Positions 6,992-27,555 of a stretch of DNA of 64,000 bases are shown in pieces. A model generated the notes under the pieces. It was not told where the DNA came from and made no database searches. It saw nothing but the letters and a program-made list of their open reading frames with translations. This DNA comes from Spirochaetaceae bacterium. Its GTDB lineage: Bacteria; Spirochaetota; Spirochaetia; SZUA-6; Bin103. Each line of letters begins with the position of its first letter. Position 1 is the stretch's first letter. The stretch spans positions 1 to 64,000 of the forward strand of contig JAPPGB010000054.1 of assembly GCA_028821475.1 (NCBI GenBank). Reading direction: 5' to 3'. The position numbers were made by a program, and so were the translations under genes.

Positions 6992-7801
6992 ATGGCAGAC
7001 GGCGGCCCGCTGAAGCTGATGTACCTGAATCCGGTCGGCACGCCCGATTACGACGAGGTGTTCGCCGCCATGGCGCGCACCGTGAAGCTGCCCGGCACCG
7101 AGGTGCACGTCACCTCGTTGAAGCCGGTCGACGGCGCCTTCACCCACATCGAGTACCGCTCTTACGAGGCCGTCGTGTCGACCGGCATCGTGCGGGCGGC
7201 GCGCGCGGCCGCCGCGGAGGGGTTCGACGCGCTGGCCATCGGCTGCTTCTACGACACCGCCCTGCTCGACGCGCGCGAGGTATCCGGCGCCATGGTGGTG
7301 ACGGCACCGTGCGCCGCCGCGCTGGAGATCGCGGCGAGCCTCGCCAACCGGTTCGGCATCATCGTCGGGCGCCGCAAGTGGGTGCACCAGATGCACGCCA
7401 CGGTGCGCGACAACGGCATGGCCGACCGGCTGAGCGGCTTCTACCCGGTGGAGCTGGGCGTGAGCGACTTCCAGACCGATCACGCCGAAACCGAGCGGCG
7501 CCTCACGGCAGCCGGCAGGAAGGCGATCGAGGAAGACTACGCGGAGGCGCTGATCCTCGGCTGCACCCTGGAGATCGGTTTCCACGACCGCCTCTCGCAG
7601 GCGCTCGGCGTCCCCGTGATCGACCCTTCGATCGCGGCGCTGAAGCGCGCCGAATACGCCGCCGACCTGAAGCGCACGTGCGGCTGGAACCCGAGCCGCC
7701 GCTGGTCCTGCGAGCCCCCGCCGGAAGCCGAGATCGCCGCCTTCGGCATCATCGGCGACACCGACGTGTTCGGCAACCGGCTCGTGGTTGCCGCGGAGTA
7801 G
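6992..7801 (+). CDS. Asp/Glu/hydantoin racemase family protein
   Basis: 269 residues behind a strong GAGGAGGAGG site and 16 bp after hydantoinase B. Residues 8-16 (LKLMYLNPV) fit the first strand of the fold. Two Cys-containing motifs of the two-base racemases are visible: AIGCFYDTAL near residue 84 and LILGCTLEIGF near residue 190. The family interconverts enantiomers of Asp, Glu or 5-substituted hydantoins. Next to a hydantoinase pair it most simply supplies the correct hydantoin enantiomer. It is about 30 residues longer than typical members because of the C-terminal part after residue ~225 (RTCGWNPSRRWSCEPP), which I cannot assign. Confidence 0.88.
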   Translation: MADGGPLKLMYLNPVGTPDYDEVFAAMARTVKLPGTEVHVTSLKPVDGAFTHIEYRSYEAVVSTGIVRAARAAAAEGFDALAIGCFYDTALLDAREVSGAMVVTAPCAAALEIAASLANRFGIIVGRRKWVHQMHATVRDNGMADRLSGFYPVELGVSDFQTDHAETERRLTAAGRKAIEEDYAEALILGCTLEIGFHDRLSQALGVPVIDPSIAALKRAEYAADLKRTCGWNPSRRWSCEPPPEAEIAAFGIIGDTDVFGNRLVVAAE

Positions 7802-7827
7802 CCGGCGTGCCAAGTGCCAGGACAGCG

Positions 7828-9144
7828 ATGCCCGCCCGCCCCAACATCGTGTTCGTCTTTTCCGATCAGCACCGGGCGCGGACGACCGGCTACGAGGGCG
7901 CGGCCGTCGCCACGCCGGCGATGGTCCGCCTGGCGGCGGAGGGCGTGGTGTTCGACACGGCGGTCTCCAGCATCCCCGTGTGCACGCCGTGGCGCGCCGC
8001 GCTGCTCACCGGGCAGTACCCGCTCACCAGCGGCGTGTTCCTCAACGACGTGCGGCTGCCCACCGACCGTCCGACCCTCGGTACGATCCTTTGCGACGCC
8101 GGCTACGACACGGCGTACATCGGCAAGTGGCACCTGGACGGCAATCGCCGCGGCGCGTTCACGCCGCCGGGCCCGCGCCGGCAGGGGTTCCGGTTCTGGG
8201 CCGCCGCCAACTGCACGCACGACTACCTGCGATCGTTCTACTACCGGGACACGCCGGAGCGGCTGTGGTGGGACCGTTACGACGCCGCGGCGCAGACCGA
8301 CATGGCGGTCGACTACATCGCCTCGCGGCAGGCGGGCGAGCCGTTCGCCCTGATGCTTTCCTGGGGGCCGCCGCACAACCCCTACCGCGACGTGCCGCGG
8401 AAGTACCTGGACCGCTATCCGGCGGCGGACGTCGAGGTCCCGGCGAACTGCCCGGACCCGGTCCGCGAAGACCTCGCCGGGTACTGCGCCCACGTCACCG
8501 CGCTGGACGAGCAACTGGGCCGCATCGACGCCGCCATCGACGCGGCCGGGCTGCGCGACGACACCATCTTCGTCTACACCTCCGACCACGGCGACATGCT
8601 GGGCTCGCAGGGGATGACCCGCAAGCAGCACCCCTGGGACGAGTCGATCCGGGTGCCATTTCTCCTGCGTTGCCCGGACCAGGCGGGCCGCGGCCGCCAC
8701 CTCTCGTTTCCGTTCGGCGTGGTCGACATTCTGCCGACGCTGCTCGGCCTCGCCGGCGTGCCGATTCCCGAAACCGTGGAGGGCCGCGACGTGTCGTCCG
8801 CCATCCGCGGCGAGCCGTTCGCGGAGCCGGAGCACTCCCTCACCATGTGCATCGCTCCGTTCGCGGAATACGTCGGCGCCCCCTGGCGCGGCGTCCGCTC
8901 CGCCCGCTACAGCTACGCGCGCTGGCTGGACGGGCGGGGCATCCTGTACGACACCGCGGCCGACCCCGACCAACTCGACAACCGCTACGGCAACCCCGCA
9001 TGCGCCGCCCTGCAGCGCCGCCTGGAAGACGCCATGCGGCAACTCCTCGCCGAGCGCGCCGACCCGTTCCTGCCCGCCGCCCACTACATCGAACGTTACG
9101 GATTCACCGTCGACGAGCGCGGCGCCGTCCCCTACACACCGTGA
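7828..9144 (+). CDS. Sulfatase (formylglycine-dependent type, S1 family)
   Basis: 438 residues from the ATG at 7828; a GTG at 7807 is a possible alternative. The N-terminus MPARPNIVFVFSDQHRA has the usual first metal-binding Asp (D13). Residues 52-56 are C-T-P-W-R followed by AALLTG, the exact C-x-P-x-R-x4-TG signature in which Cys is matured to formylglycine. Further sulfatase motifs are YIGKWHL (about residue 109), FVYTSDHGDMLG (about residue 250) and the C-terminal FxLxxDPxxxxN-like ILYDTAADPDQLDNRYGN. It lacks a signal peptide, so it is probably cytoplasmic. It is the last gene of the hydantoinase/racemase run, so a substrate carrying both a sulfate ester and a hydantoin or lactam part is conceivable. 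Confidence 0.92.
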   Translation: MPARPNIVFVFSDQHRARTTGYEGAAVATPAMVRLAAEGVVFDTAVSSIPVCTPWRAALLTGQYPLTSGVFLNDVRLPTDRPTLGTILCDAGYDTAYIGKWHLDGNRRGAFTPPGPRRQGFRFWAAANCTHDYLRSFYYRDTPERLWWDRYDAAAQTDMAVDYIASRQAGEPFALMLSWGPPHNPYRDVPRKYLDRYPAADVEVPANCPDPVREDLAGYCAHVTALDEQLGRIDAAIDAAGLRDDTIFVYTSDHGDMLGSQGMTRKQHPWDESIRVPFLLRCPDQAGRGRHLSFPFGVVDILPTLLGLAGVPIPETVEGRDVSSAIRGEPFAEPEHSLTMCIAPFAEYVGAPWRGVRSARYSYARWLDGRGILYDTAADPDQLDNRYGNPACAALQRRLEDAMRQLLAERADPFLPAAHYIERYGFTVDERGAVPYTP

Positions 9145-9241: not shown

Positions 9242-11773
9242 TCAACCTGTGAGCAACTCGGTGAGGCGGCGCTGCCATTCGGCTTCGTCGACCACCTCGA
9301 AGCGCATGGGTCGGCCACGCATCGCCGGAACGAACTCTGCCCAGTCGCGGCGGGTGGCGTGGCGGGAGCAGATGTCGAAGACCGAGCGCTTGTACTCGGT
9401 GTCGGCGGCTTCCTTGAGGTGGAGGCCCTTGGTCTCGACCACGAACACCTGGTGGAACGGGTCGGTGGCGTCCGGGTCGTCGGGCTTCAGCGTGAATATG
9501 AAGTCGGCGTAAATCTTGCCTCGCTTCCAGCCCTGCACGTAGTAGTCCTGGCGCGCGCGGTTGCGGTACCAGAAGAACAGGCGTTCCTGCTGGTCGAGGA
9601 AGGTCGCCACGCGATTCTCCAAGGCGTTCAGTTCGTTGTCGTCGGTGCGGTCGAACAGATTGAGCAGGTACTGGGTGCCGTCAACGCGGTTGGCTTGCGT
9701 GGCGGGAACGGCCTTGATTTGCCGGGGCAGCCTGTTGAAGCCGAAGTCTTCGGCGGCCACGATGAAGCGCATCACTCCAGTGTCGAGCAGGTTGACGAAG
9801 GCGCCGCGCGCCAACCGGTCACGCTCCAGTTCCAGCCGCTTGTGCAATTCCTCCAGGATGAAGCCGTGGTTGCTTACCACGAGGTCACGGTCGTGGCGCT
9901 CAAGGAGTGCGCCGAACACGCGGCGCGCGACCTCACTGCCGCGCCACGGGTTCGGCATCACATCGAGCAGGTGGCTGGCGGCGAACGCATGGTCCAGGTG
10001 GCCGCCGCCCCCGGCACGGTCGGGAGCGGCATACGTGGAAGCCGCTGCAATACCGCCGTCCACGCCGACCTGCATCTCGATGTCGTCGCCCGGCCGTTCG
10101 CCGAGCGGCAGGTCGTAGAGCGGGGTCACATCCACCTCGTCCCACGGCGTGCGTGACAGAATGTCGGCTTCGTAGTGCGCCGGACGCCACGTGCTGCCGT
10201 CGCGGATCATGAATGCTGGCAGCACGAGGTCGCGTGCCGCCCGCCGGAACCGCCTGCGTTGTCTGTGCACGACGGACGCCGCGGGCTCCATGGGGCTGTC
10301 GCCGTCGTCAGCCAGCTTGGGTTCCAGGTCGCCGAGCCCCTCGCGATTGAATCCCCGGCGCACCTCGCGCAGGAGTTCGACGCTCTGGCGCTGGAAGCAG
10401 AACACGTAGCTCTCGTCCAGCCAGCGGTCGCCGGTCTTGCGCGCGTAGGGCTGGCGCAGGATGCGGCCCACGAGCTGGGTCAGCGCGCTCCTGGAGCTGG
10501 GGCGCGTGAGGATCGCCAGCACGTAGGCGAAGGCGCAGTCCCAGCCCTCCTGCAGCGCCTGCTTGGTGATGATGAACCGGATCTGGCAGTCGCGCACCAG
10601 CAGGCCGCCGGCGTCATCGACCTCCTTGAGGTCGTCGCGGGCGCTGGTCTTGATCGCGATCTGCTCCGCGCCGATGTCGGGGTGCTCCATGAGGTACTCG
10701 CGCGCGTCCTCGGCGTGTACGACGCCGGGCAGCCGCTGGTCGCGGCCGGTGCGCTCCACCTGAATCAGGCAGATCGGGCGGATGTGCATGCCGCTGGCGG
10801 CGTCGTGGCGCCGCGCACGTTCCTCCAGCTTTGCCCGGTGCTCGACGGCCGCCAACAAGGTGTCCTTCCAGCTCGTGCTCGACCGATTCCTGATGTGCAG
10901 GTCGAGCTTGATCATCTCCTCCTCATTCAGGTCGCGGCCGAAGATCTCGATCAGCACGTTCGCCTCGGCGGTGGGCGTCGCCGACAGCTCCACGATCAGC
11001 GACGGGTTGAACCCCTCCAGCGTTGCCTTGGCGTTGCTGCTGTATGCCTTGTGGCCCTCGTCCAGCACGATCATCGGGCGCAGCAGGCGCAGGGTGTTGC
11101 CGAGCGACGTCTTGATCTGCCGGCCCCAGAAGCCGCCGCCCGCGAACGTGTCCAGGTTCGGTACCCGTTCCAGCAAGGCGCGATGGCCGGCGGCGTCGTC
11201 ATCGGCGGGGAAGAAGCGGTCGAACCCGCCGCTGTCGCGAAACATGCGCAGTTGTTCCTTGGTCTCGCGGTTGGCGGACGGGAGCATCAGCAGCAGGATG
11301 CACAGACTGCCGGCCACGTCCGCCGGCCGGAACCCGCTGGTCTTCTCCAGGACCATGGTGCGGCCGGCGGATGCGAGGTCGAGCTGCTGGCGGTACGGAT
11401 GATCGCGGTCCTTCAGCGCCGCCAGCGTCTGCCGGTAGATCTGGGTGGTGGGTACGATCCACAGCACCAGCCCGGTCTGGCGGTAGAGCAACTTGGCGTG
11501 CACGAGGTCGATCACGCGCGTCGCCAGCAGCGTCTTGCCGCCGCCGGTGGGAATCTTGAGGCAGAACGCGGGCAGCGGCTCACCCGTGCCGGTGGTGCGC
11601 CGCACGTACGGACGCGCCGGCACGGCCTTCTCCCAGGCTTCGCGCGCCCAATCCAGCTTCAACTCCGGATCGATCCCCCGCACCTTGGCTGCCCTGTCGC
11701 GCTGCCGCGCGAGCTCATCGAGGAGGCTGCGTACGGCGGCCAGCGCGCGTTGCTGGTACTCCTTGAGGATCAT
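9242..11773 (-). CDS. res: Type III restriction enzyme, Res subunit (helicase-nuclease)
   Basis: 843 residues. SF2 helicase motifs in order: Walker A KIPTGGGKT at 73-81, DEGH at 238-241, SATPT at about 270, and QLVGRILRQPYAR (motif VI) further on. A C-terminal PD-(D/E)XK nuclease is visible as YADFIFTL followed by FVVETKG, with E780 and K782 as the E-x-K pair. The protein pairs with the Mod methyltransferase encoded just upstream (start codon overlaps the Mod stop by 4 bp, ATGA). Together they should cleave DNA with unmethylated asymmetric sites using ATP-driven translocation. At 843 residues it is slightly shorter than classic EcoP1I-type Res (about 970). No inactivating lesion is visible. 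Confidence 0.93.
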   Translation of the reverse strand: MILKEYQQRALAAVRSLLDELARQRDRAAKVRGIDPELKLDWAREAWEKAVPARPYVRRTTGTGEPLPAFCLKIPTGGGKTLLATRVIDLVHAKLLYRQTGLVLWIVPTTQIYRQTLAALKDRDHPYRQQLDLASAGRTMVLEKTSGFRPADVAGSLCILLLMLPSANRETKEQLRMFRDSGGFDRFFPADDDAAGHRALLERVPNLDTFAGGGFWGRQIKTSLGNTLRLLRPMIVLDEGHKAYSSNAKATLEGFNPSLIVELSATPTAEANVLIEIFGRDLNEEEMIKLDLHIRNRSSTSWKDTLLAAVEHRAKLEERARRHDAASGMHIRPICLIQVERTGRDQRLPGVVHAEDAREYLMEHPDIGAEQIAIKTSARDDLKEVDDAGGLLVRDCQIRFIITKQALQEGWDCAFAYVLAILTRPSSRSALTQLVGRILRQPYARKTGDRWLDESYVFCFQRQSVELLREVRRGFNREGLGDLEPKLADDGDSPMEPAASVVHRQRRRFRRAARDLVLPAFMIRDGSTWRPAHYEADILSRTPWDEVDVTPLYDLPLGERPGDDIEMQVGVDGGIAAASTYAAPDRAGGGGHLDHAFAASHLLDVMPNPWRGSEVARRVFGALLERHDRDLVVSNHGFILEELHKRLELERDRLARGAFVNLLDTGVMRFIVAAEDFGFNRLPRQIKAVPATQANRVDGTQYLLNLFDRTDDNELNALENRVATFLDQQERLFFWYRNRARQDYYVQGWKRGKIYADFIFTLKPDDPDATDPFHQVFVVETKGLHLKEAADTEYKRSVFDICSRHATRRDWAEFVPAMRGRPMRFEVVDEAEWQRRLTELLTG

Positions 11774-13419
11774 GTCTCCTGCCGCACGCCGCCGTCCGCC
11801 AAGGCGTCGATCGCCTGGTAGATCTGGAACGGCAACTGGCAGAACGTGATGCGGTACAGGTCCAGAAACTCCTGGTCCAGGTACTTGGTCGGTGCGAACA
11901 CCAGCCGGTTGGCCCCCTTCGGCCTGGGCAGCGAGCGAGCGAAGTCGAGCGTGAGCGCCAAGTCCTTGATCCGCTCGCGGTCCGGCTCGTAGATCAGGTA
12001 CACGTCGCCGCGGCGGCTGCGGCCGATCAGTCCGGTGTCACGGTTGACCTTGCGCGGATCGAACTGCTCCCCGGTGGCGGTGAAGAACACGTAACCCGCC
12101 AGCGCCTCGTAATCCGGTAGATCGCGCCCGGAAAGCAGCGACTCCTGCTGCATCGGCGAACCGAGCTCGAAGTAGCTGAACGAGCCACCGAGCCCCGCCT
12201 TCAGGCTGGCATCCCTGGCAGACGGCACACCCTTGATCACCCGCCGCACCCGCTCGGCGGTAATCGAATCCGCGTAGTCCTCACATTCGATCAACACGAA
12301 CCGCCGGTTGCCGCCGTCCTCCTGGTTGAGGGCGAGAACCGCGTGCGCCGTGGTGCCCGATCCTGCGAACGAGTCAAGGACGACAGAATCCCGGTCAGTC
12401 GCGATTTCGAGGATGCGTCGAATGAGACCGGTAGGCTTCACGGTATTGAACACGTCCTCCGATCTTTCGAAGTTCAGAACTGACACCAGCTCCCTCTTGG
12501 CATCCTGCGTGTGCCCAACCTCAGTGTGAGGCCACAACGTCCGCGGCACGACGCCCGTCTTTACCTCAGACAGATAGCGCTTGAGGCGAGGCATACTGTC
12601 GCCGTCAGGTCCCCACCAGATACGATTGTCCTGATCAAGCTCTGCAAACCGCGCTTGCGACATCAGGAAGTACCTGCCCATCGATGGTCCGAACGTCCTC
12701 CCTGATGGGCTGATCACTTCGTATGTACCAAGGCTGTAGAAATTCCGCGCGGTCAAATCGCTCGATGACCAGTCGCCACGAGGATCGTCGTCCGGGTTCT
12801 TGTATCGGCTTGTTGCCTGCTCGCTTCGCTCAAGGAGGTGTGGTGTCCACTGCTGAGAGTCCTGGGCGTAGATGACCACGAAGTCGTGGTCTTCCGAAAA
12901 CTGTCTGGCGCTGTTCTTCGGTGAGAAGTTCTTCTGCCAGATTGCAGTCGCTACGAAGTTCTCCTCGCCGAACACCTCGTCCATGAGGCATCTCAGGTTG
13001 TGGACTTCGTTGTCGTCAATCGAGACGAATATGACGCCGTCTTGTCGGAGCAACTCTCGCAGCAGTTTCAGGCGCGGCAGCATCATGCAGCACCACTTGT
13101 CGTGGCGGGTCAGGTCATCGCGGTCAACGGTCTTGCCGAGCCAGTCCTGCATCATCGGCGAGTTGACGTTGTCGTTGTAGGCCCATCCCTCATTACCTGT
13201 GTTGTATGGAGGATCGATGTAGATGCACTTGACCTTGTTGTGGTAGGTCGGCAGCAGAGCCTTCAGCGCCGCCAAGTTGTCTCCGTGAACGATAAGATTG
13301 TCGTGCAGGCTCGCCGTCCTGCCGATCCCCTTGCTAGCCACCGGACGCAACTCGTGGAATGGTACCGAAAGGTGGTGGTTGTCGACGAACGTCTTGCCTT
13401 TGAACTGTAATGACGGCAT
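11770..13419 (-). CDS. mod: Type III site-specific adenine DNA methyltransferase, Mod subunit
   Basis: 549 residues. NLIVHGDNLAALKALL followed by CIYIDPPYNTGNEGW contains motif IV DPPY at residues 69-72. Motif I, SFAGSGTTAHAVL, lies near residue 350. This IV-before-I order is that of beta-class N6-adenine or N4-cytosine methyltransferases and of Mod proteins. The region between (about 150-330) is the target-recognition part and is visibly AT-richer than the flanks, as is usual for exchangeable recognition domains. Upstream there is 230 bp with no gene before the divergent Uma2 gene. Together with Res it forms a complete type III restriction-modification system. The recognition site cannot be predicted here. 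Confidence 0.93.
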   Translation of the reverse strand: MPSLQFKGKTFVDNHHLSVPFHELRPVASKGIGRTASLHDNLIVHGDNLAALKALLPTYHNKVKCIYIDPPYNTGNEGWAYNDNVNSPMMQDWLGKTVDRDDLTRHDKWCCMMLPRLKLLRELLRQDGVIFVSIDDNEVHNLRCLMDEVFGEENFVATAIWQKNFSPKNSARQFSEDHDFVVIYAQDSQQWTPHLLERSEQATSRYKNPDDDPRGDWSSSDLTARNFYSLGTYEVISPSGRTFGPSMGRYFLMSQARFAELDQDNRIWWGPDGDSMPRLKRYLSEVKTGVVPRTLWPHTEVGHTQDAKRELVSVLNFERSEDVFNTVKPTGLIRRILEIATDRDSVVLDSFAGSGTTAHAVLALNQEDGGNRRFVLIECEDYADSITAERVRRVIKGVPSARDASLKAGLGGSFSYFELGSPMQQESLLSGRDLPDYEALAGYVFFTATGEQFDPRKVNRDTGLIGRSRRGDVYLIYEPDRERIKDLALTLDFARSLPRPKGANRLVFAPTKYLDQEFLDLYRITFCQLPFQIYQAIDALADGGVRQET

Positions 13420-13650
13420 CGCAAGCAGGTGTGCCGGATGGAACCCCAGGCAAGCTCAGTCTACGGTGGCACGCGTCGCGCGTCCAGCTTTTCGGTACCG
13501 GCCGGCTTTCTCGGACCAGGCAAAGGAAGAGCACCTGAGCCTCAACGAGATGGCTTCCGCGCTGGAGCGGCGGTGCTCGTCGGTCCGCGTGCGCTTGCGA
13601 ACGATGCAGCCGCCGGGTACGCTGGCTCGGGCTCGTGAGGAGGTGGCGTG

Positions 13651-14445
13651 ATGAGCAGCTCCATGGCCGCTCCGGTCGCGGTCGAGTACCCGGACTCGGA
13701 CGGTAAGCCGTTGCCGGACAGCGATTTCCAATTCGACGACCTGATCTACGCGCGTGAGCGGTTGCGTATCTACTACCGCCACGATGACGTGTACGTCGGC
13801 GGCAACCTGCTGATCTACTACGAACAAGGCAATCCGCGAGCGTCGGTGGCGCCGGACGTGTTCGTAGTGCTGGGAGTGCCGAATCACAAGCGGCGCTCCT
13901 ACCTGCTGTGGGCGGAGGGCAAGGTGCCGGACTTCGTGCTGGAGATCGCGTCGCACAGCACGTGGGCCGAGGACCGGGGGCCGAAGCGGGAGCTGTATCG
14001 GCGGTTGGGCGTCACGGAGTATTGGCAGTACGACCCGACGGGCGATTATCTGGAGCCGGTGTTGCAGGGGCTGGAGCTGGTGGCGGGCAAGTACGTGCCG
14101 ATCGCGGGGCGCAAGACGGCCGGGGGGCTGCCGGCGCTGCCGAGCAGGGTCCTGGGGCTGGAGTTGCACGCCACGGAGGACGGGTTGCGGTTCCCGGATC
14201 CGGTGACGGGGAAGTACCTGGTCTCGCATGCGGAGGACGCGGAGCCACGAGCAGCGGCCGAAGGGCGGGCGACGGCAGAAGCGGAGGCACGAGCAGCGGC
14301 CGAAGCGCGGGCGACGGCAGAAGCGGAGGCGCGGGCCGCGGCGGAAGCGCGGGCGACGGCAGAAGCGGAGGCGCGCGCCGCGGCGGAGGCGCGGGTCGCG
14401 GAACTGGAGGCCCGGCTGCGCAAGCGCGGTGATCCTGAACGGTGA
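13651..14445 (+). CDS. Uma2 family endonuclease-like protein with coiled-coil tail
   Basis: 264 residues from the ATG at 13651, behind GAGGAGGTGG at 13637-13646. The N-terminal ~190 residues match the Uma2 (DUF820) restriction-endonuclease-like fold: SVAPDVFVVLGV and PDFVLEIASHSTWAEDRGPKR carry the D...E-x-[SA] pattern of the PD-(D/E)XK core, then KRELYRRLGVTEYWQYDP. Residues from about 200 onward form an Ala/Glu/Arg heptad-like coiled coil from a tandem repeat, ending in VAELEARLRKRGD. Uma2 proteins are abundant in cyanobacteria and some other phyla, and their role is not settled. It stands alone between the restriction system and the ParDE module. Confidence 0.85.
   Translation: MSSSMAAPVAVEYPDSDGKPLPDSDFQFDDLIYARERLRIYYRHDDVYVGGNLLIYYEQGNPRASVAPDVFVVLGVPNHKRRSYLLWAEGKVPDFVLEIASHSTWAEDRGPKRELYRRLGVTEYWQYDPTGDYLEPVLQGLELVAGKYVPIAGRKTAGGLPALPSRVLGLELHATEDGLRFPDPVTGKYLVSHAEDAEPRAAAEGRATAEAEARAAAEARATAEAEARAAAEARATAEAEARAAAEARVAELEARLRKRGDPER
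14245..14412 (+). repeat. 42-bp tandem repeat, four copies, inside the Uma2-like gene
   Basis: Units at 14245-14286, 14287-14328, 14329-14370 and 14371-14412 (the last diverged). Each unit encodes the 14-residue block ARAAAEARATAEAE, equal to two heptads, so copy-number change would lengthen or shorten the coiled coil without a frameshift. Confidence 0.85.
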
Positions 14446-14650
14446 GCCGGCTCGCGGTAAAGGGCGGCGTGATAGCGTCAGGAGGACTACGCCGAGGCGT
14501 TGAAGACCGCACTGGATACCAACCGCTAGCGCGACTTCTGCGCCGGTGACCCGGGAGTGCTGGATCGCGTGCAGTTGGCCGAGCGGGTCGTCCTGCCGCG
14601 CGTGCCGTTGACCAACTGTGTGCCGGCAGGATCCGGGTTCCGGTCCGCCG

Positions 14651-14679
14651 TTGACCGTGGTGCTACCGAGTAGTACCCT
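14651..14679 (+). promoter_or_regulatory. parDE promoter with inverted-repeat operator
   Basis: A -35 box TTGACC at 14651-14656 and a -10 box TACCCT at 14674-14679 are separated by 17 bp. An inverted repeat GGTGCTAC-CGA-GTAGTACC (14659-14677, 7 of 8 pairs) lies exactly between and over the boxes, where a ParD dimer would repress. The expected +1 falls on or next to the GTG start at 14686, so the transcript would be nearly leaderless. Confidence 0.55.
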
Positions 14680-14685
14680 GGATCT

Positions 14686-14961
14686 GTGGCGGTCAAGTCG
14701 TCGATATCGCTGACCGACGAGCAGCACGCGTTTGCGCGGGCGCTGGTCGAGGCAGGGCGCTACTCCAGCCTCAGCGCGGTCCTGCAGCAGGGCGTCGATC
14801 TGCTGCGGCAGCGAGTCGACGCCGAGGAGTTGGAGACCGAGGCACTGCGCGAGCTGCTGTCGCGCCGCCGCAAGGACGAGCGCATCAGTGCGGAGCGGAT
14901 GGACACGCGGCTCGGCTGCATGTTCGCCGACAAGCGCCGCGCGCATGGCCTTCCGTCTTGA
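14686..14961 (+). CDS. parD: Type II antitoxin, ParD/CopG-like
   Basis: 91 residues with a GTG start. The N-terminus VKSSISLTDEQHAFARALVEAGRYSS is the ribbon-helix-helix pattern of ParD antitoxins, followed by SLSAVLQQGVDLLRQR (second helix) and a charged C-terminal half that would wrap the toxin. The stop overlaps the start of the downstream ParE gene by 17 bp, the normal order and coupling of parDE. An inverted repeat in the promoter just upstream fits autoregulation by the RHH domain. No good ribosome site precedes the GTG, in line with leaderless translation. Confidence 0.88.
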   Translation: MAVKSSISLTDEQHAFARALVEAGRYSSLSAVLQQGVDLLRQRVDAEELETEALRELLSRRRKDERISAERMDTRLGCMFADKRRAHGLPS

Positions 14962-15292
14962 GTTCGCCGCCGGCGCGGAACGCGACTTCGGGCTGATATT
15001 CGATCATCTCCTGCGCAGCTACCTCCACTTCGGCGAGAGCCCGGAGAGCGCGCTCGATCACGCCGAGGACCGGATCCTCGAAATCCGTGCGGCCGCCGAA
15101 CGCATCCTGGGTGCTCCGCATCGGGGCGAACGCCATGACGACATTCTGCCCGGGTTGCGGCATCTCGCCATCGGACCTGCGATCTACTGGTTCGATATCG
15201 ACGAGTCCCGCGCAACGGTGCGTGTCCTGGCGGTGTTCTTCGGCGGCCAGGACCACGTCCGCCGCATGATGGCCCGCCTACTCCAGGAATAA
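14945..15292 (+). CDS. parE: Type II toxin, RelE/ParE family
   Basis: 115 residues from the ATG at 14945, overlapping parD by 17 bp. The pattern FRLEFAAGAERDFGLIFDHL, ILGAPHRGERHDDILPGLRHLAIGPAIYWFDID and VRVLAVFFGGQDH matches ParE: first strand and helix pair, then the antiparallel sheet with the R-x-L-x(n)-YWF core and a C-terminal GGQDH-like end. Known ParE toxins poison DNA gyrase; related RelE toxins cut mRNA on the ribosome. The YW-F and GGQ-H residues fit ParE better. The reading frame is intact. Confidence 0.88.
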   Translation: MAFRLEFAAGAERDFGLIFDHLLRSYLHFGESPESALDHAEDRILEIRAAAERILGAPHRGERHDDILPGLRHLAIGPAIYWFDIDESRATVRVLAVFFGGQDHVRRMMARLLQE

Positions 15293-15352
15293 CGCGAGTC
15301 AGCGTTGCCGGCCCACGCACGCCCACGGCACGCTACGGATCGCCGCGTCCTT

Positions 15353-15381
15353 TTGACAGGCCGGGGCGGCGCTCCTACACT
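15353..15381 (+). promoter_or_regulatory. Near-consensus sigma70-type promoter upstream of a deleted peptide-transporter operon
   Basis: Perfect TTGACA at 15353-15358, a 17-bp spacer, and TACACT at 15376-15381. Transcription would start near 15388 and run into the degraded permease remains from 15430 and the substrate-binding-protein remnant at 15819. Confidence 0.65.
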
Positions 15382-15429
15382 GGCCGGGCCTCTGCCGCTC
15401 CGGTGCGGCAGGAGCGCTCGGCCTGAACC

Positions 15430-15706
15430 ATGCAGCATTTCCTGATACGCCGCGGCCGCCATCCCGATCGGCATCGTCAGCGCCGTGCGCCGGTACTCGC
15501 TGACCGACTACACGGTCACCCTGCTCGGCTTCATCGGCCTGCAGCGCCCGGTGCTGAGTTGGGGCGTGCTGCAGAACGCCCACAACGTGCGCACCACGGC
15601 GGTGCACCCGTGGCTGATCCCGGTGCTGTTCGTGATCGCCGCGGTGCTGCAGTTCAATTTCGTCGGCGACGGCCTTCGCGATGCCGCCGACCCGTACAAG
15701 AGGTAA
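15430..15706 (+). pseudogene. Oligopeptide/dipeptide ABC permease remains (OppB and OppC pieces joined by deletions)
   Basis: Three pieces of different permease parts lie side by side. At 15430 a start MQHFLIRR in one frame looks like the N-terminus of an OppB/DppB permease. After a frame change, 15458-15540 reads AIPIGIVSAVRRYSLTDY, typical of the OppB loop and helix in the middle of that protein. Then 15556-15706 reads QNAHNVRTTAVHPWLIPVLF and FNFVGDGLRDAADPYKR, the C-terminal end of an OppC/DppC permease. Only about 90 of the ~630 residues of the two permeases remain. A near-consensus promoter is preserved just upstream. Deletion decay of a transporter operon is the simplest reading; assembly error is the alternative. 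Confidence 0.65.
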
Positions 15707-15818
15707 GGAAGAGAGCAAGAGTGAGGTAACGAACCGGCGGATCGCCGGCAGCCCGATGGCGGCCGGGGTGCGGGCCTCGTAGGAGGCGCGTGAGCCGGGA
15801 CCTCAAAGGAGCATCACA

Positions 15819-16196
15819 ATGCGGAAGAAGCTGGTGACAAGTATCGCGGTCGGCGCGCCGGCGCTGGCCTCGGCATGGGCCTACAACGAGGCGCATTTCC
15901 GCCAGCTTGTCGGCGTCCTGGAAGTCCTCGAGGAGCCGATTGCCGAGGTGAAGCAGATTCGGGACTGGTGGGAGCAGTACACCACCACCGTGGACTTGGC
16001 CGAGCGTGACCGGCTGATCGACAACGTGCTGCGCACGCATGCCGAGAACGCGTTCGTGATCGGGGTGATCGGCGACGTGATGAAGCCGGTGCTGGTGAAC
16101 AAGAGCCTGTTCAACGTGCCAACCGAGGGCGCGCACGGCTACGACGCCATCCGCTTCCAGCCCAACCACCCGGAGCAGTTCTTCTTCCGCGGCTGA
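15819..16196 (+). pseudogene. Peptide ABC transporter substrate-binding protein remnant (N-terminus fused to C-terminus)
   Basis: A 125-residue frame with an AAAGGAG site in front of the ATG. Residues 1-20 (MRKKLVTSIAVGAPALASAW) look like the start of an exported protein. From about residue 25 onward, LVGVLEVLEEPIAE..., WWEQYTTTVDLAERDRLIDN and VPTEGAHGYDAIRFQPNHPE match the C-terminal end of family 5 (OppA/DppA-like) binding proteins, which normally have 500-600 residues. So about 450 residues between are missing, without a frameshift. It follows the broken permease remains in the order expected for an opp/dpp operon and shares their promoter. It could be translated but could not bind peptides. 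Confidence 0.7.
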
Positions 16197-16268: not shown

Positions 16269-19200
16269 ATGGCACGCAACTACACGCTCCTCCTGCACGA
16301 CACCGTGCGCGCCCACGTCCTGTCCCTGGACGCCCGCGCAAAGCAGCGCCTGCGCGAGAAGCTGGAGTTCCTGCAGGCGGGCCTGTGGGACGCCGGGGTG
16401 CGGGTCAAGAAGCTCAAGGGCAGCGGCCGCGCCGTGTTCGAGGCGCGCCTCAGCCGCGGCGACCGCATCCTGTTCACGCTCGGCGAGGCGCCGGAGGGCG
16501 AGGCGCCGGCAGGGTCCGGCGGCAGCGCCGGCGTCACCCGCATCTACGTGTGGGGGGTGGTAAAGCACGACGACGTGAACGCCGCCGCGGAGCGCCGCAT
16601 CGTACCCGCCAACGCGCCGTTTCTGGATTTCGAGCCGGCGCAGGTCGAGGAGTTGCCGGAACTCGATGCTGACACCCTTGGGAGTGACTACTTCTCGCCG
16701 GCGCTCGACCAGCCGGTCGCCGTGCCGGGAGCCGGGCTCGGCTCCGACGCTTACGGCGAGCCGCTCGGCGAGGTGCCCGGCGACGCCGGCCCGCAGCGCT
16801 GGCTGGTGGTGGACGAGGAGGAGTGGCGGCGCCTGCAGGCAGACCACCAGGGTGACCACCTCGAACTGTACCTGTTCCTGACCCGCGAGCAGGCTCGGCT
16901 GCTGCACGGCGAGCCCCCGCTGCTGCTGTCCGGCACCGCCGGCAGCGGCAAGACCACCATCGCCGTCTACTTCCTGCTGCGCCACCGGGTGCGCCGGCTC
17001 GTGCACGCGCCCGACCGGGGCAGCGGAGCGCCGGCCGGCGGCAGCGTGCGATCCGGAGCCGCCGGCCCCGCCGCGTACGCCGCCCCGGGCCGCGGCGCAC
17101 CGGGGTCCGTATCCGTTGGCTCGGCAGCGGCACCGCGAGACGGCGATGGCACCGACGGCGGCGAATCGGGCGCCGAGCGGGCGCTGTTTCTGACCTGCAG
17201 CGCTCACCTGAAGCGGTTCTCCGAGCGCATCTACCGCGGACTGGTGAAGGCCACCGAGCTGGAACATGCGCCCGAGGCGGTGCGTTTCGCGACCCTGGGC
17301 GAACTGCTTGGCGAAATCCTGGGCCACGCCGGGCGTCCCGAGTGGCAGGCGCCGCCGGCCGGGCTGGCCGAGTTCGGCGCCATCCTCCGCAACCACCCCG
17401 GCGCGGCCCGCTACGACACGGAGTTGGTGTGGGAGGAGATCCGCTCCATCATCAAGGGCGCCAAGCCGCCGGTGAGCCGGCGCCGGTTCGCGCAGTTGGC
17501 GGCGCGCTTCGCGGCGGGACAGGCTGCGTTGCGCGAACGCGTGGAGCTGGCGGAGTACGTGGTGCGGCTCGCCAACCTGGAGTCGGGTGCACGGCTCGAC
17601 GGCGTGCGGGCGCGCAAGACCGCGTTCGGGTCGCTGGAGGAATTCGCCGCCTGCCTGCGGGACGCGGCGGCGTTGCGCCGGGACGAGCAGCTGTTCCTGC
17701 TCGAAGCGGCCGCGAGACTCCTGGAGAAGCAGTCCGCGCGCCTGGAACAGCCACTGCTTACCTTGCGCGAGTACGAGGGCCTGGGACGCAAGCGCGCGCC
17801 CAACTTTCCGTTCGACCGGCGCGACATCCACCGCCTCGCCGAGTACTACCAGGGGCGGCTGGAGGCGGACGCGCGCTACGACGAGATCGACCAGACCCGC
17901 GCCGCGCTGCAGCACCTGGAGCGGCACGGTGACCGGTTCCGCTACGACCTGGTGGTGTGCGACGAGGTGCAGGATTTCACCGACATGCAGCTCGCCCTGC
18001 TGTTCCGCCTGGCCCGCGATCCGCGCCGTACCGTGCTCACCGGCGACCCCAAGCAGATCATCAACCCGAGCGGCTTCCGCTGGGAGGAGGTGCGCGCGCG
18101 CTACTACGAGCGCGGCCTGCCGGTGCCGCCGGTGATCAACCTCAGCGTCAACTTCCGCAGCGTGGGCAACGTCGTCGGCCTGGCAAACGAGGTGCTGCTG
18201 TTGAAACGCACGCTGATCGGGCTGGCCGGCGGCGAGATCACCGAACGCTGGACGTTCCGTGGCCGGCCGCCTCTACTGGTCGATGGAGTCGCCGAACCCG
18301 ACCTGCTGGAGACGATCCGCCGCGGCGGTGCGGGCCGGGTGGTGCTGGTGCGCACGGAACGGGAGCGGGACCGGGTGCGCGCCGTGCTGCAGAGCGAGCT
18401 GGTGTTCACCATCGGCGAGGCCAAGGGACTGGAGTTCGACGCCGTGCTGCTGTGGCGGTTTCCGACCGCGCTGGGCTCGCCGGCGATCTGGCGGCGCATC
18501 GCCGCCGGCCGGGTGCGCGGCGCGGCCGATGCCCCGCACGTCCGTCACGAGCTGAACCTGCTGTACGTGGCGGTGACGCGGGCGCGCAACACGCTGGTGA
18601 TCTGGGACGGCGAACAGGTCAGCCCGATCTGGAGCCTGGATCGACTGGCCGGCCACGTGTACCGGTCCGCCGATGCCGCCGCCATCGACAACCTGTGGCA
18701 GAGCGTGTCCACTCCCGCCGAGTGGCGGGAGCAGGGCGACTACTTCATGCAGCGCGAGCACTTCGCCGCGGCCGAGGAGTGCTACCGCAACGCCCAGGCG
18801 GCCACCGAGGAGGAGCTGGCGCGCGCCCACCGGCTGGAGCGGGAGGGGGAACTGGAAGCGGCCGCCAGGGTGTTCGTCCGCCTCGGGCGGGTGCCGCGGG
18901 CGGCGGAGGGCCTGGAGCGGGCCGGCGCATTCCCGGCCGCGGCGCACATGTGGCGCCGTGCCGGCAACGAGATGCGTGCGATGGCGTGCGAGGCGAAACA
19001 GGCCGAGGCGGCCGGCGATTACGCCACCGCGGCGGTCCGCTGGCAGCAACTGGGCGTGGAAGAGGGCGTGCTGCGCAACTGGCAACGGGGTGGCGAGAAC
19101 GGCAAGCTGGCGCAGTTCTACCTGGAACGCAAAATCCCCAGTGAGGCGGCGCGCTATCTGCAGAGAATCGGTGACCACCCCAAGGCGGCGGAGCAGTTTC

Positions 19201-20753
19201 GCCGCGCCGGAATGCTGACCTCGGCGGCCGCCGAGTACGAACTCGCGGGCGACCACGAGCGCGCCGCGGGGCTCTACCGGCGGCTGGGCGACAACGACGG
19301 CCTGCTGCGCAGCCTGACGAGCGCCGGCCTGTTCCACGATGCCGGGCTGCTGCACGAGAAGCGCGGCGACCTGGAGCAGGCAGCCGACTGCTTCCTGCGC
19401 CACGCCGAGAGCTCGCCCGAGGCGCGCCAGGACCTGGAGCGCGAGCTGGAACGCATCGCGGTCCGCCATACCGGCATGCCCGCCGCGATTCGCATGGCCG
19501 CCGTGGGGCAGCCGGGGCGGGCCGCGCCGATCTACCTGGAGCACGGCCATCCGGAGCGCGCCGCCGAGCTGTTCAGCGCCGCCGGCGAGCACCGATCCGC
19601 CGCCGCCTGCCTGGCGCAGTGCGGCCAACTGCGGGAGGCCGCGTGCGAGGCGGCCGCCGGCGGCGAGGAGGGCATCCGGAATGCGGTGCGCTATCTGGTC
19701 GCCTACCTGCACGAGGACATTCTCGAAGCCTACGACCGGGGCAGAGAGTTGGCCCGTACCGCCGGGCGCCTGTTCCGCGGCGGCGAGTACCCGAGGGCGC
19801 TGGCGCACTACCTTGCGGTGGGAGCGGTGCGCGGCGACCTCTACCTGGAGGAAGTTACCGCGGCCTGCGGCAAACTGGAACTGCACGCCGTCGCCATCGA
19901 CTACTGCCTGGACCGAGGTCGGAGCGCCGCGGCGGCGGCCTACCTGGACGCACGCCCGGGCCTGGTGCTGACGCCGGCGGAGGTTGAGTGGCTCGTGTGC
20001 GGGCCTGGTCATGGCTCGCGGCTCGACACTACCGAGAGCGAGTACGCGGGCGCGCACGGGGTGCTGTTTCGGCTCATGCACGGCTGCCTGTACCGCGGCG
20101 CGGCGCCCGACTGCCGGCAACGGGTGGCCGCGCTGCTCGACGGGCTGCCTCCCCACTATGGCCTGTCCGGTCTCCTGCCGGTCGAGTTGAGCGACCTGAT
20201 CGTCGATCTGCGCCGCTACGAGGTGATCGTCGACGTCCACACGGGGCTGCGGTACTCCCCGCCGTCGGATGAGGAACGGGACCACTTTCTCGCCCGTCTG
20301 AAGCGTACGGCGGAGCAGGAACACGATCCGGAGTTGACGCTCTGCACGCTGCTCGACGATCGTGCGGCGTTCGATGCGGGGCTGCAGGCGATGCAGCCGA
20401 GTGCACGCAACGTGGCGCTGTTCGCGCACAGCGGCCGGCACTATGCCGCGGCGGCGGAGTTCCTGGTGCAGCAGGGCGACCGGGAGCGGGCTGCAACGGT
20501 GTGCACCGACCACGAGGACTACGAGCGCGCCGGCAGAATCCACGAGCAGGCCGGCGACCTCGCCGCGGCCGCACACTCCTACCGCGACGGCATGTGCCTC
20601 GACGACGCGCTGCGCTGTTACGAGCAACTCGGCGAGGAAGGGGAGATGGCGCGCGTCTTTGAAGTTCAGCACCGGTATGAGGAGGCGGTTGCGATCTGGC
20701 AACGGCTCGGCCACAAGCAGGAGGTGGAGCGCGTACGCGGCAAGATGGGGTGA
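16269..20753 (+). CDS. Giant RelE-like / SF1 UvrD-type helicase / TPR-like fusion protein
   Basis: 1494 residues from the ATG at 16269; TTG at 16203 is an alternative start. Residues 1-~125: a RelE/ParE-like fold (ARNYTLLLHDTV, helices, VKKLKGSGRAVFEARLSRGD, RILFTL, VWGVVKHDDV). Residues ~210-800: SF1 helicase with Walker A GTAGSGKTT (~223-231), CDEVQDF (~564, motif II), TVLTGDPKQII (motif III), GEAKGLEFD (~716, motif V) and VAVTRARNTL (~767, motif VI). A ~55-residue Gly/Ala/Ser insert separates motifs I and Ia. Residues ~818-1494: a long array of helix pairs of TPR type (AAEECYRNAQ, AARYLQRIGDHPKAAEQF, AADCFLRH). RelE-like cleavage, helicase and scaffold functions in one chain suggest an RNA- or DNA-surveillance or anti-phage role, which is inference. 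It lies in a defence-rich zone and has no obvious antitoxin gene. Confidence 0.85.
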   Translation: MARNYTLLLHDTVRAHVLSLDARAKQRLREKLEFLQAGLWDAGVRVKKLKGSGRAVFEARLSRGDRILFTLGEAPEGEAPAGSGGSAGVTRIYVWGVVKHDDVNAAAERRIVPANAPFLDFEPAQVEELPELDADTLGSDYFSPALDQPVAVPGAGLGSDAYGEPLGEVPGDAGPQRWLVVDEEEWRRLQADHQGDHLELYLFLTREQARLLHGEPPLLLSGTAGSGKTTIAVYFLLRHRVRRLVHAPDRGSGAPAGGSVRSGAAGPAAYAAPGRGAPGSVSVGSAAAPRDGDGTDGGESGAERALFLTCSAHLKRFSERIYRGLVKATELEHAPEAVRFATLGELLGEILGHAGRPEWQAPPAGLAEFGAILRNHPGAARYDTELVWEEIRSIIKGAKPPVSRRRFAQLAARFAAGQAALRERVELAEYVVRLANLESGARLDGVRARKTAFGSLEEFAACLRDAAALRRDEQLFLLEAAARLLEKQSARLEQPLLTLREYEGLGRKRAPNFPFDRRDIHRLAEYYQGRLEADARYDEIDQTRAALQHLERHGDRFRYDLVVCDEVQDFTDMQLALLFRLARDPRRTVLTGDPKQIINPSGFRWEEVRARYYERGLPVPPVINLSVNFRSVGNVVGLANEVLLLKRTLIGLAGGEITERWTFRGRPPLLVDGVAEPDLLETIRRGGAGRVVLVRTERERDRVRAVLQSELVFTIGEAKGLEFDAVLLWRFPTALGSPAIWRRIAAGRVRGAADAPHVRHELNLLYVAVTRARNTLVIWDGEQVSPIWSLDRLAGHVYRSADAAAIDNLWQSVSTPAEWREQGDYFMQREHFAAAEECYRNAQAATEEELARAHRLEREGELEAAARVFVRLGRVPRAAEGLERAGAFPAAAHMWRRAGNEMRAMACEAKQAEAAGDYATAAVRWQQLGVEEGVLRNWQRGGENGKLAQFYLERKIPSEAARYLQRIGDHPKAAEQFRRAGMLTSAAAEYELAGDHERAAGLYRRLGDNDGLLRSLTSAGLFHDAGLLHEKRGDLEQAADCFLRHAESSPEARQDLERELERIAVRHTGMPAAIRMAAVGQPGRAAPIYLEHGHPERAAELFSAAGEHRSAAACLAQCGQLREAACEAAAGGEEGIRNAVRYLVAYLHEDILEAYDRGRELARTAGRLFRGGEYPRALAHYLAVGAVRGDLYLEEVTAACGKLELHAVAIDYCLDRGRSAAAAAYLDARPGLVLTPAEVEWLVCGPGHGSRLDTTESEYAGAHGVLFRLMHGCLYRGAAPDCRQRVAALLDGLPPHYGLSGLLPVELSDLIVDLRRYEVIVDVHTGLRYSPPSDEERDHFLARLKRTAEQEHDPELTLCTLLDDRAAFDAGLQAMQPSARNVALFAHSGRHYAAAAEFLVQQGDRERAATVCTDHEDYERAGRIHEQAGDLAAAAHSYRDGMCLDDALRCYEQLGEEGEMARVFEVQHRYEEAVAIWQRLGHKQEVERVRGKMG

Positions 20754-24682: not shown

Positions 24683-26074
24683 TCACTGCCCGCCTCCCGC
24701 CTGCAGGCGTTGCGCGGCGCCGGGGTCGCCGATGTGCAGGGTGTCGTAGGCCTGCTGCGGCGAGGTGAAGGCGCCCAACCCGGCGTGGCCGTGCCAATCG
24801 CCCTGGTTCAGGATCGGCGCAGGCAGCCCGGTGTCCCGGCATCGCTGTTCGATCCATCGCTCCATGCGCCCGCGCAGGAACGCCGCCACGTCGGGCAACT
24901 CGTCCGCCAGGTTGTGCAGTTCGTCCGGGTCGTCGGTCAGGCGGTACAGCTCCACCGGCGGCTTGAAGTGGAAGTCGGGCTCCAGCGCCGCGATCAGCTT
25001 CCACTCCGGCGTGCGCCAGCCGTGCTTGCGCATCCAGGTGCACTCGGTCAGGTACAGCTCGCTGGCGTGACTGTGGCGCGCGCCGCGCACCATCGGCAGC
25101 AGGCTGCGGCCGTCGAACCGCGCTTCGTCGTACGGCAGGCCGGCCAGCTCCAGCAGCGTCGGCACCAGGTCCTGGTGCTGGTTGTAGCCGGCCACGCGTA
25201 CCCCGCCCGGCAGCCCGGGCGGGTAGCGCAGGATCAGCGGCACGTGCAGCACGTTGTCGTACAGGCCGTGGTGATCGAACCAGCACTCGTGGTCGTACAG
25301 CGTCTCGCCGTGGTCGCCGTTCACCACCACGATGGTGTCGTCCAGGATGCCGTGCGTCTCGAGCGCGTTGAACAGGACGGCGATGGCGGCGTCCATGTAG
25401 GCGACGGCGCCGTCGTACTGGGCGATCACGTAGTCCTTGTCGGTGATGCCGGGCGGCATCCAGGCGGCGAAGTAGTCCCGGAACGGCTTGAACGACAGCA
25501 CCGGGTCCATGGAGCGGTTGGCCGGGTCGCACTCGTTGCCGTGGTAGAAGATGCGCTCGTACGGCTGCGGCGGCAGGTAGGGCGAGTGCGGGTCCATGTG
25601 GCGCAGGAACAGCAGGAACGGGTCGCCGCCGGCCACCAGCCGGTCCAGCTCCGGCAGCGCGGTCTCGTTGAGCAGGTGCGCCTTGGGTGCGCGGCCGCCG
25701 GCCGTGGGGGCCCATGCCTCGTAGTCGAGGTAGGTGTCGAAGCCGCGCGCGGAGGGATTGCCGGAGAAACCGATGCAGGTGCTGGTGTAGCCGTGGCCGC
25801 GCAGCAGCTCCGGCAGGGTGGTGACGGCCGCCCCGAGCGGACCCTTGTGGCGCAGCGCCACCACTTGCGTGCTGAAGCAGTCGAGGCCGGACAGCATCGA
25901 ACAGTACGCGGGGGTGGTCGGCACCGCCGGCGAGTACGTGCGCTCGAACAGCACCGCGTCGGCGGCGAAGCGGTCCAGGTGCGGGGTGGTGGGGCGATGG
26001 TAGCCGTAGCTGCTCATGTGGCCGGCGGACAGCGAGTCGATGCCGAGCAGAACGACGTTGGGTGGTCTTGCCAT
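24683..26074 (-). CDS. Sulfatase-fold hydrolase with Thr at the catalytic Cys position
   Basis: 463 residues. MARPPNVVLLGIDSLSAGHMSSYGY has the N-terminal metal Asp (D13), and later IVVVNGDHGETLYDHECWFDHH supplies the second metal site (D-H-G-E). At the place of the C-x-P-x-R signature the protein has T53-T-P-A-Y57 followed by CSMLSG, so both the formylglycine Cys and the Arg are absent. This suggests hydrolysis by a Thr nucleophile, as in phospho- or phosphonate-ester hydrolases of the alkaline phosphatase superfamily, or loss of activity. The start overlaps the stop of the upstream gene by one base (TAATG). No signal peptide. Confidence 0.85.
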   Translation of the reverse strand: MARPPNVVLLGIDSLSAGHMSSYGYHRPTTPHLDRFAADAVLFERTYSPAVPTTPAYCSMLSGLDCFSTQVVALRHKGPLGAAVTTLPELLRGHGYTSTCIGFSGNPSARGFDTYLDYEAWAPTAGGRAPKAHLLNETALPELDRLVAGGDPFLLFLRHMDPHSPYLPPQPYERIFYHGNECDPANRSMDPVLSFKPFRDYFAAWMPPGITDKDYVIAQYDGAVAYMDAAIAVLFNALETHGILDDTIVVVNGDHGETLYDHECWFDHHGLYDNVLHVPLILRYPPGLPGGVRVAGYNQHQDLVPTLLELAGLPYDEARFDGRSLLPMVRGARHSHASELYLTECTWMRKHGWRTPEWKLIAALEPDFHFKPPVELYRLTDDPDELHNLADELPDVAAFLRGRMERWIEQRCRDTGLPAPILNQGDWHGHAGLGAFTSPQQAYDTLHIGDPGAAQRLQAGGGQ

Positions 26075-27555
26075 TACCGTTCCAGGTAGTCGCGCGCCCA
26101 GCTCCCACCGGCGGCGCCGCTGCCGGGCGACCGCCACAGCGCCTGCGTCGCCTCGTCGGCGCCGTATTCCTTGAGCGAGGCCAGCAGCAGCTCGTGCAGT
26201 TCGGCCACCGCGGCGCGGTTCGCCTCGGCCACGTCGTGCTCGGCGCGCGGGTCGGCGGCCAGGTCGAAAAGTTGCGGCGCGCCGCCGGGGCCGACCGGCG
26301 CGTAGCCCCAGTCGGCGGCGCGCAGGAATGGCGTGCTCGCGCGTGCCGGGAGCTGGTTCGGGGTGGCCGCGGCCGGGCGCGCGTGGGCGGCGGTAATCAC
26401 GTGCTCGCGCAGCGCACCGCCGCCGGCCAGCAGTTGCGGGGCGAAGGAACGTCCCTGCACCGGTTGCGGCGGCGCGATGTCGACGCCGGCCAGCTCGCTG
26501 AGGGTGGGCAACAGGTCGAACGGCTGTGCGCGCAGGTCGAGCTGCGTCCCGGCCGGTACCGGCCCCGCCTGCGCGTTGCCGGCGATCAGGCACAGCTCGT
26601 CGCTCAGCACCGGATACAGCGGCCAGAAACGCCCGTCGTCGTCGGTGATGTTGCTCTTGCCGCAGCAGTTGTGCTCGCCCACCGCCATGCCGTGGTCGGC
26701 CATCACCACCACCAGCGAGTTGCGCCACAGGTCCAGGTCGTCGATCTTCTCCAGCACCCGCCCGATGTGGCGGTCCACCAGCTCCGACTCGGCGGCGTAG
26801 TGCGCCCACAGGTTGCGCAACTCGGCCTCGGTGTAGCGGTCGGCGGGGCCGTAATTGGGGTGCAGCATCGGCGGCCCGTTGTAGCCGGGGTCGTAGCGGC
26901 GCACCAGGTACTCCGGCGCATCCCACGGTTCGTGCGGGTCGAAGAAGTCCACCCACAGGAAGAACGGGCCGGCCTGGTAGTTGCGCTCCAGCCAGGTGGC
27001 GGTGGTCCGGGCGGTCTGCGCGCAGAACGTGTCGGCCTCGGCACGGATGTCGTTCAGCCACACGTGCAGGTCAATCAGCGTACCGCCGAGGGTCTGCGGC
27101 GACAGGCGCGTCTTGGCGCGCGGCACCGCTTCGGCGATCGGGTCGTTCATGTGCAGCAGGGTGAGGTCGCCCTCCTGGCCGCGGTGCTGGTAGCTGCCGT
27201 GGAAGCCGACCTGGAAGCCCGACTTGAACAGGTGCGGGCAGTCGCAGATGAGCTGCGTGAAGTAGCCTCGTTCCGCGAGCAGCGAGGCGATGTGGTTCGG
27301 GGTGCTGTGGCTGATCGGCTGCCACCCGTAGTGCGGCCACCCGACGCGTCCGCTGGCGAAGTCGGTGCGGTGCGGGATGGTGGGGAAGCTGCTCATGGTG
27401 AGCCCGGTCAGCTCGGTGGCGCGCTCGGCGGCGAACCGGTCGAGCGCGGGGGTGCGCACCGGGCGGATGGCGCGGTCGCCGAGGTTGTCGCGCCGAAAGG
27501 TGTCGGTGATCAGGACGATGATGTTGGGATGCTCGGAAGCTGCCATGGCGGCCAT
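26074..27555 (-). CDS. Sulfatase-fold hydrolase with Thr at the catalytic Cys position (second copy)
   Basis: 493 residues. EHPNIIVLITDTFRRDNLG gives the first metal Asp (D18), and VVVMADHGMAVGEHNCCGK the second metal region. The signature region reads FPT59-I-P-H-R63-TDFASG: the Arg is kept but Thr replaces the Cys that would become formylglycine. It shares architecture with the downstream gene, although the two are clearly different proteins, and the genes are translationally coupled (one-base overlap). Such Thr variants cannot be ordinary sulfatases; phosphodiesterase or phosphonate monoesterase activity is plausible. The start is the first of two nearby ATGs (27555, 27546). Confidence 0.85.
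   Translation of the reverse strand: MAAMAASEHPNIIVLITDTFRRDNLGDRAIRPVRTPALDRFAAERATELTGLTMSSFPTIPHRTDFASGRVGWPHYGWQPISHSTPNHIASLLAERGYFTQLICDCPHLFKSGFQVGFHGSYQHRGQEGDLTLLHMNDPIAEAVPRAKTRLSPQTLGGTLIDLHVWLNDIRAEADTFCAQTARTTATWLERNYQAGPFFLWVDFFDPHEPWDAPEYLVRRYDPGYNGPPMLHPNYGPADRYTEAELRNLWAHYAAESELVDRHIGRVLEKIDDLDLWRNSLVVVMADHGMAVGEHNCCGKSNITDDDGRFWPLYPVLSDELCLIAGNAQAGPVPAGTQLDLRAQPFDLLPTLSELAGVDIAPPQPVQGRSFAPQLLAGGGALREHVITAAHARPAAATPNQLPARASTPFLRAADWGYAPVGPGGAPQLFDLAADPRAEHDVAEANRAAVAELHELLLASLKEYGADEATQALWRSPGSGAAGGSWARDYLER

Follow-up and report, generated by a model that had tools for sequence, protein, structure and literature searches.

The window analysed here, a 64,000-nucleotide stretch from a Spirochaetaceae bacterium (assembly GCA_028821475.1, contig JAPPGB010000054.1, positions 1 to 64,000 of the forward strand), contains a gene whose predicted product joins a RelE/YoeB/HigB-like domain, a superfamily 1 (SF1) helicase motor and a long alpha-solenoid in one chain. 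The frame, which a preliminary description of the window had called single and intact, is open from 16269 to 20753 on the plus strand over 1,494 codons, and homologues begin at the same site as its start codon. The three-part anatomy of the fusion protein is well supported, and the features are located as follows, all on the plus strand.

16269..20753, + strand: whole gene, RelE-like domain, SF1 helicase and alpha-solenoid, 1,494 aa (from the frame, Pfam and homologues)
16269..16631, + strand: putative RelE/YoeB/HigB-like domain, residues 1-121 (from alignment, predicted structure and fold search)
16632..16868, + strand: linker, residues 122-200, with conserved D-x-GPQ-x-W and EW motifs (from alignment)
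16869..18668, + strand: SF1A (UvrD-type) motor, residues 201-800, with motifs I-VI and without a 2B subdomain (from Pfam and motifs)
17007..17177, + strand: low-complexity variable insert within the motor, residues about 247-303 (from the sequence)
18666..20750, + strand: alpha-solenoid, residues 800-1494, helices spaced 13 residues apart, fastest change in the C-terminal half (from the model and periodicity)

All three parts of the gene are under purifying selection relative to an orthologue, with ratios of nonsynonymous to synonymous substitution (dN/dS) of 0.24 for the RelE-like domain, 0.27 for the motor, and 0.17 and 0.46 for the first and second parts of the solenoid. Identity to distant homologues is highest in the N-terminal domain (57-63%), intermediate in the motor (47-50%) and lowest in the solenoid (23-36%). 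The low dN/dS, together with a second copy in the same genome (61-76% identical) and full-length homologues in other spirochaetes, shows that the fusion gene is not a chance product. A promoter and terminator scan found none.

The N-terminal domain, residues 1-121, is predicted to adopt the BECR/RelE fold, an assignment supported at fold level. The Pfam families best matched by members of this protein family are YoeB (E 0.0011) and HigB (E 0.0027), both below cut-off; a cyanobacterial member also gives a sub-cut-off match to TIGR02116 Txe/YoeB (E 0.0058), and in the PDB the match is to a YoeB chain at E 0.43. When the widened family was compared profile to profile with HigB of the same genome group, the score was 25.5, against a maximum of 16.3 for 40 column-shuffled controls, and the narrow set scored 19.9 against 17.4; with YoeB, only the widened family exceeded its controls (19.5 against 18.4). 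In a template-free model of the domain the strands and helices follow one another as they do in RelE, and about 100 columns are paired by Foldseek with RelE and YoeB structures, the matches including thermophilus RelE (probability 0.99, template modelling (TM) score 0.61 by target), Staphylococcus aureus YoeB (probability 0.99, TM 0.68 by target) and Mycobacterium tuberculosis RelE2 (probability 0.92, TM 0.68 by target). Because model confidence is low in this region, the weight for a RelE-like fold lies in the agreement of these several lines. The preliminary description had read residues 1-125 as RelE-like and proposed a structural comparison of residues 1-130 with RelE, ParE and YoeB; its reading is borne out at fold level (Foldseek probabilities 0.92-0.99, from a predicted model of low confidence), with no curated cut-off reached.

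An alignment of 16 N-terminal domains has invariant residues at K47, K48, L49, G51, E58, A59, R60, R66, T70, Y93, H100 and D101; the set invariant across spirochaetes and two cyanobacteria comprises these positions without A59. The catalytic residues of YoeB are well established, and the two catalytic arginines of YoeB and HigB are matched in alignment by R60 and R66. By position, H100 resembles the terminal histidine of these toxins, as it closes the matching last strand, although automatic alignment leaves the two unpaired owing to end gaps.

The central motor contains all SF1A motifs from I to VI, including the five that had been quoted in the preliminary description (GTAGSGKTT at residues 222-230, CDEVQDF at 564-570, GDPKQII at 592-598, AKGLEFD at 718-724 and AVTRAR at 768-773), and matches the Pfam families UvrD-helicase (E=1.1e-8) and UvrD_C (E=4e-8). 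Only 90 residues separate motif IV from motif V, compared with 272-309 in the UvrD/PcrA genes of related genomes, which indicates that the 2B subdomain is absent; the UvrD_C profile, matched at 288-345 of its 350 positions alone, agrees with this. Scores against the NCBIfam equivalogs for UvrD, PcrA and Rep fall far under cut-off (PcrA 36.8 of 911 bits). PADLOC returns weak local matches to GajB, Pfam gives a weak match to the SLFN-g3 helicase, and a match to nSTAND3 (E 0.11) is confined to the P-loop, the motifs throughout being those of UvrD. The geometry of the motor was not used, as the model of residues 1-835 was built from five sequences and has a mean predicted local distance difference test (pLDDT) score of 45.

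The solenoid is modelled with a mean pLDDT of 81.5, rising to about 90 or more over residues 820-1059. Its helices start 13 residues apart, giving a hairpin of 26, and the autocorrelation of its hydrophobic positions peaks at 26, 13 and 39. This periodicity rules out classical tetratricopeptide repeats (TPR), in which the helix pair spans 34 residues, so that of the long TPR-like array first described, the long helical repeats stand and the classical TPR does not. Pfam responds weakly, with GEMI5 TPR (0.001) and clathrin (0.04), and the best fold matches are to IFT-A subunits (E 4.6e-8), with Ski3, clathrin, OGT and GEMIN5 among others. No function follows from these matches, since Z values near 12 are common among repeat proteins. 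A viral structure library gave no match at E <= 0.001.

Full-length homologues occur in metagenome-assembled genomes of Spirochaetaceae and other spirochaetes, and the N-terminal domain is joined to the motor in 11 of 61 related genomes. Across a phylum-wide sample of Spirochaetota, the family is found in 8 of 393 genomes (~2%), two of the eight being short pieces. Two cyanobacterial plasmids encode shorter versions with the same N-terminal motifs and TPR-like repeats, so the homologue search proposed in the preliminary description finds the three-part architecture recurring in spirochaetes and on cyanobacterial plasmids; DUF3696 and DUF262 genes lie near a cyanobacterial plasmid homologue (L037 2072-4365). 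More distant kin on Paraclostridium and Cetobacterium plasmids keep the parts in the same order, while kin on Polymorphobacter and Thermus plasmids have ankyrin repeats; motifs alone identify the RelE-like region in all four, and no Pfam model responds to it. Two plasmid genes (L039 5191-8127 and L050 5001-7769) have a UvrD motor joined to a RelE-like motif region and to ankyrin repeats; among the matches listed for such genes, close relatives sit on many plasmids of Shigella and E. coli. Some plasmid homologues lie near ParA/ParB.

In a tree of the RelE-plus-motor region, whose deep branches are long and unsure, the window gene groups with a copy from another genome of the genus, and the second copies of both genomes form a group of their own, so that the duplication is older than the split of the two genomes; orthologous positions of the gene are kept within the genus. 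The related genomes also encode UvrD/PcrA proteins of about 670 aa in genes of their own. Phage records contain no match to the fusion protein, and the ten relatives on viral contigs are helicase-only or divergent. One contig with transposase and phage terminase-like genes carries a 1,450-aa UvrD-plus-solenoid gene (L120 184-4536) with an unrecognised N-terminus.

Upstream of the gene in the window lie a type III restriction pair, a Uma2 protein and ParDE, of which ParE falls below the Pfam cut-off. The preliminary description had built a case for defence on such neighbours, and this case does not survive comparison with other loci. The type III mod, Uma2 and ParDE genes (window 11770-15292) were not found at the corresponding position of the sister genome, where contig L033 has an AAA-type ATPase-like gene. 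There a dipeptide ATP-binding cassette (ABC) transporter operon directly precedes the fusion gene and a restriction subunit is also nearby; the operon, intact at L033 3745-7931, persists in the window as eroded remnants in the same order (two permeases and an SBP_bac_5 protein, 15344-16196). At 12 homologous loci the neighbours differ and are mostly housekeeping genes, including transporters, a tRNA synthetase, an aldehyde dehydrogenase and an iron permease; translation genes occur at some of them, namely a class II tRNA synthetase (L062) and a SpoU methylase (L061). This variety indicates that there is neither a conserved partner nor a consistent defence island. No GajA-type partner was found among the neighbours scanned. 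The earlier statement that a dedicated antitoxin is lacking stands: a simple gene caller with a cut-off of 80 aa, which leaves shorter genes unsearched, called no antitoxin-like gene adjoining the fusion gene, and Pfam detects no antitoxin domain within the chain.

Comparison with known systems places the protein closest to the RelE/ParE (BECR) toxins, and to YoeB and HigB among them, with which it shares the predicted fold and strand order, the KL-x-G and R-[ILV]-x-[FY] motifs, the two aligned arginines and, by position, the terminal histidine. It differs from YoeB and HigB in being joined to a motor and solenoid, in having no detected antitoxin, in carrying a lysine at the position of YoeB Glu46 and in scoring below curated cut-offs, and with no antitoxin found either adjoining (at least 80 aa) or fused, the gene does not constitute a type II toxin-antitoxin module. 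Its motor has motifs I-VI in common with the SF1A helicases UvrD, PcrA and Rep but lacks their 2B subdomain, and its weak likeness to GajB of Gabija is not accompanied by an adjacent GajA. STAND immune proteins such as Avs carry an N-terminal effector, a central nucleoside triphosphatase (NTPase) and a C-terminal repeat sensor in one chain; the order of parts is alike, but here an SF1 helicase takes the place of the STAND NTPase. In Schlafen group III proteins, of which SLFN11 is an example, an RNase-type domain is likewise joined to an SF1 helicase, although their RNase fold is unrelated and they have no long solenoid. The plasmid UvrD-ankyrin proteins of Polymorphobacter and Thermus have a RelE-like motif region, UvrD motor and repeats in the same order, with ankyrins instead of the 13-residue solenoid, and form a distant sister group whose RelE kinship is by motif only. 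The fusion protein is best filed as a multidomain RelE-fold protein. As the preliminary description supposed, it appears undescribed: the literature searched contains no description of a RelE-helicase fusion, though an earlier mention in a 2003 paper on toxin-antitoxin systems and RNA decay cannot be excluded.

The activity and role that we infer are those of an accessory, antitoxin-less, single-chain effector-motor-sensor protein, in which the RelE-like effector is governed in cis by the motor and sensor arm; we favour this reading tentatively, at somewhat below an even chance. The RelE-like domain would dock in the ribosomal A site and cut, or at least grip, mRNA, while the motor would be held off until the solenoid binds a trigger and would then switch or deliver the RelE-like domain, such that control in cis by motor and solenoid stands in for the missing antitoxin. 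The outcome might be translation arrest or mRNA clearance in response to one particular stress, with infection or foreign nucleic acid as the likeliest. This logic is the same as that of effector-NTPase-sensor immune proteins, yet the protein is not one of them. In favour are the RelE-like fold, the conserved basic and histidine residues, the N-terminal domain being the most conserved part, the fast-changing C-terminal half of the solenoid, the patchy distribution and the failure of the gene caller (80-aa cut-off) to call an antitoxin-like gene alongside. Several findings weigh against it. Residues 1-121 score below the cut-off of every Pfam and NCBIfam model (best E in the family 0.0011, YoeB), pLDDT in the RelE region is just 31-44, and Foldseek E-values for the domain are 0.14-0.8. 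The general-base position of YoeB (Glu46) is Lys47 here, which leaves catalysis by the domain unproven. Just 1 of 20 neighbours is defence-like (AbiEii-like, L054), and neither phage records nor viral contigs yielded a phage-linked copy whose RelE domain could be recognised. Patchy occurrence and plasmid carriage of relatives nevertheless fit an accessory, possibly defensive, role; the surveillance or anti-phage machine first proposed is compatible with these two features, but direct evidence of defence was not found.

A RelE-like fold could alternatively serve not defence but ribosome-linked mRNA quality control, in which the domain anchors the protein to stalled ribosomes at the A site while mRNA is extracted by the motor and partners are recruited by the solenoid, as a one-chain counterpart of Ski-like machines. 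The solenoid does resemble Ski3, IFT-A and GEMIN5, of which Ski3 and GEMIN5 serve RNA machines, and both the translation genes at L062 and L061 and the positions kept within the genus are in keeping with this proposal; solenoid folds are, however, promiscuous and carry little functional meaning, this one diverges fast, and presence in 8 of 393 genomes is too patchy for a core role, which makes quality control rather unlikely. An accessory helicase acting on DNA in plasmid or genome maintenance, with the RelE-like domain as a catalytically dead, ParE-like module for docking to nucleic acid or protein, would account for the UvrD-type motor, the plasmid homologues near ParA/ParB and the changed general-base position. 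It is a slightly less likely explanation, for the invariance of E58, R60, R66 and H100 across spirochaetes and cyanobacteria exceeds the needs of docking, and the motor is without the 2B subdomain typical of UvrD, PcrA and Rep. That same absence, the distant equivalog scores, the separate UvrD/PcrA genes of related genomes and the patchy distribution disfavour a housekeeping UvrD/PcrA-like repair helicase with decorations, which has the SF1A motifs in common but is highly improbable.

Should the RelE-like domain be active, the effector-motor-sensor reading would describe a toxin domain aimed at the ribosome and controlled by a motor within its own chain, not by an antitoxin, the repeat arms being exchangeable. 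Known immune architectures would then gain a single-gene effector-motor-sensor design, and helicase gating of nucleases a simple test case. A broader proposal, which we regard as doubtful, would place the family in a widespread and hitherto undescribed class of immune or surveillance proteins that are self-contained and target translation. In such proteins a RelE nuclease would be controlled by an SF1 helicase in place of an antitoxin, and the repeat arm, 13-residue helical or ankyrin, would act as an interchangeable sensor.

Around the locus, three sulfatase-like open frames were recognised by eye (window 7309-9144 and 24683-27555).
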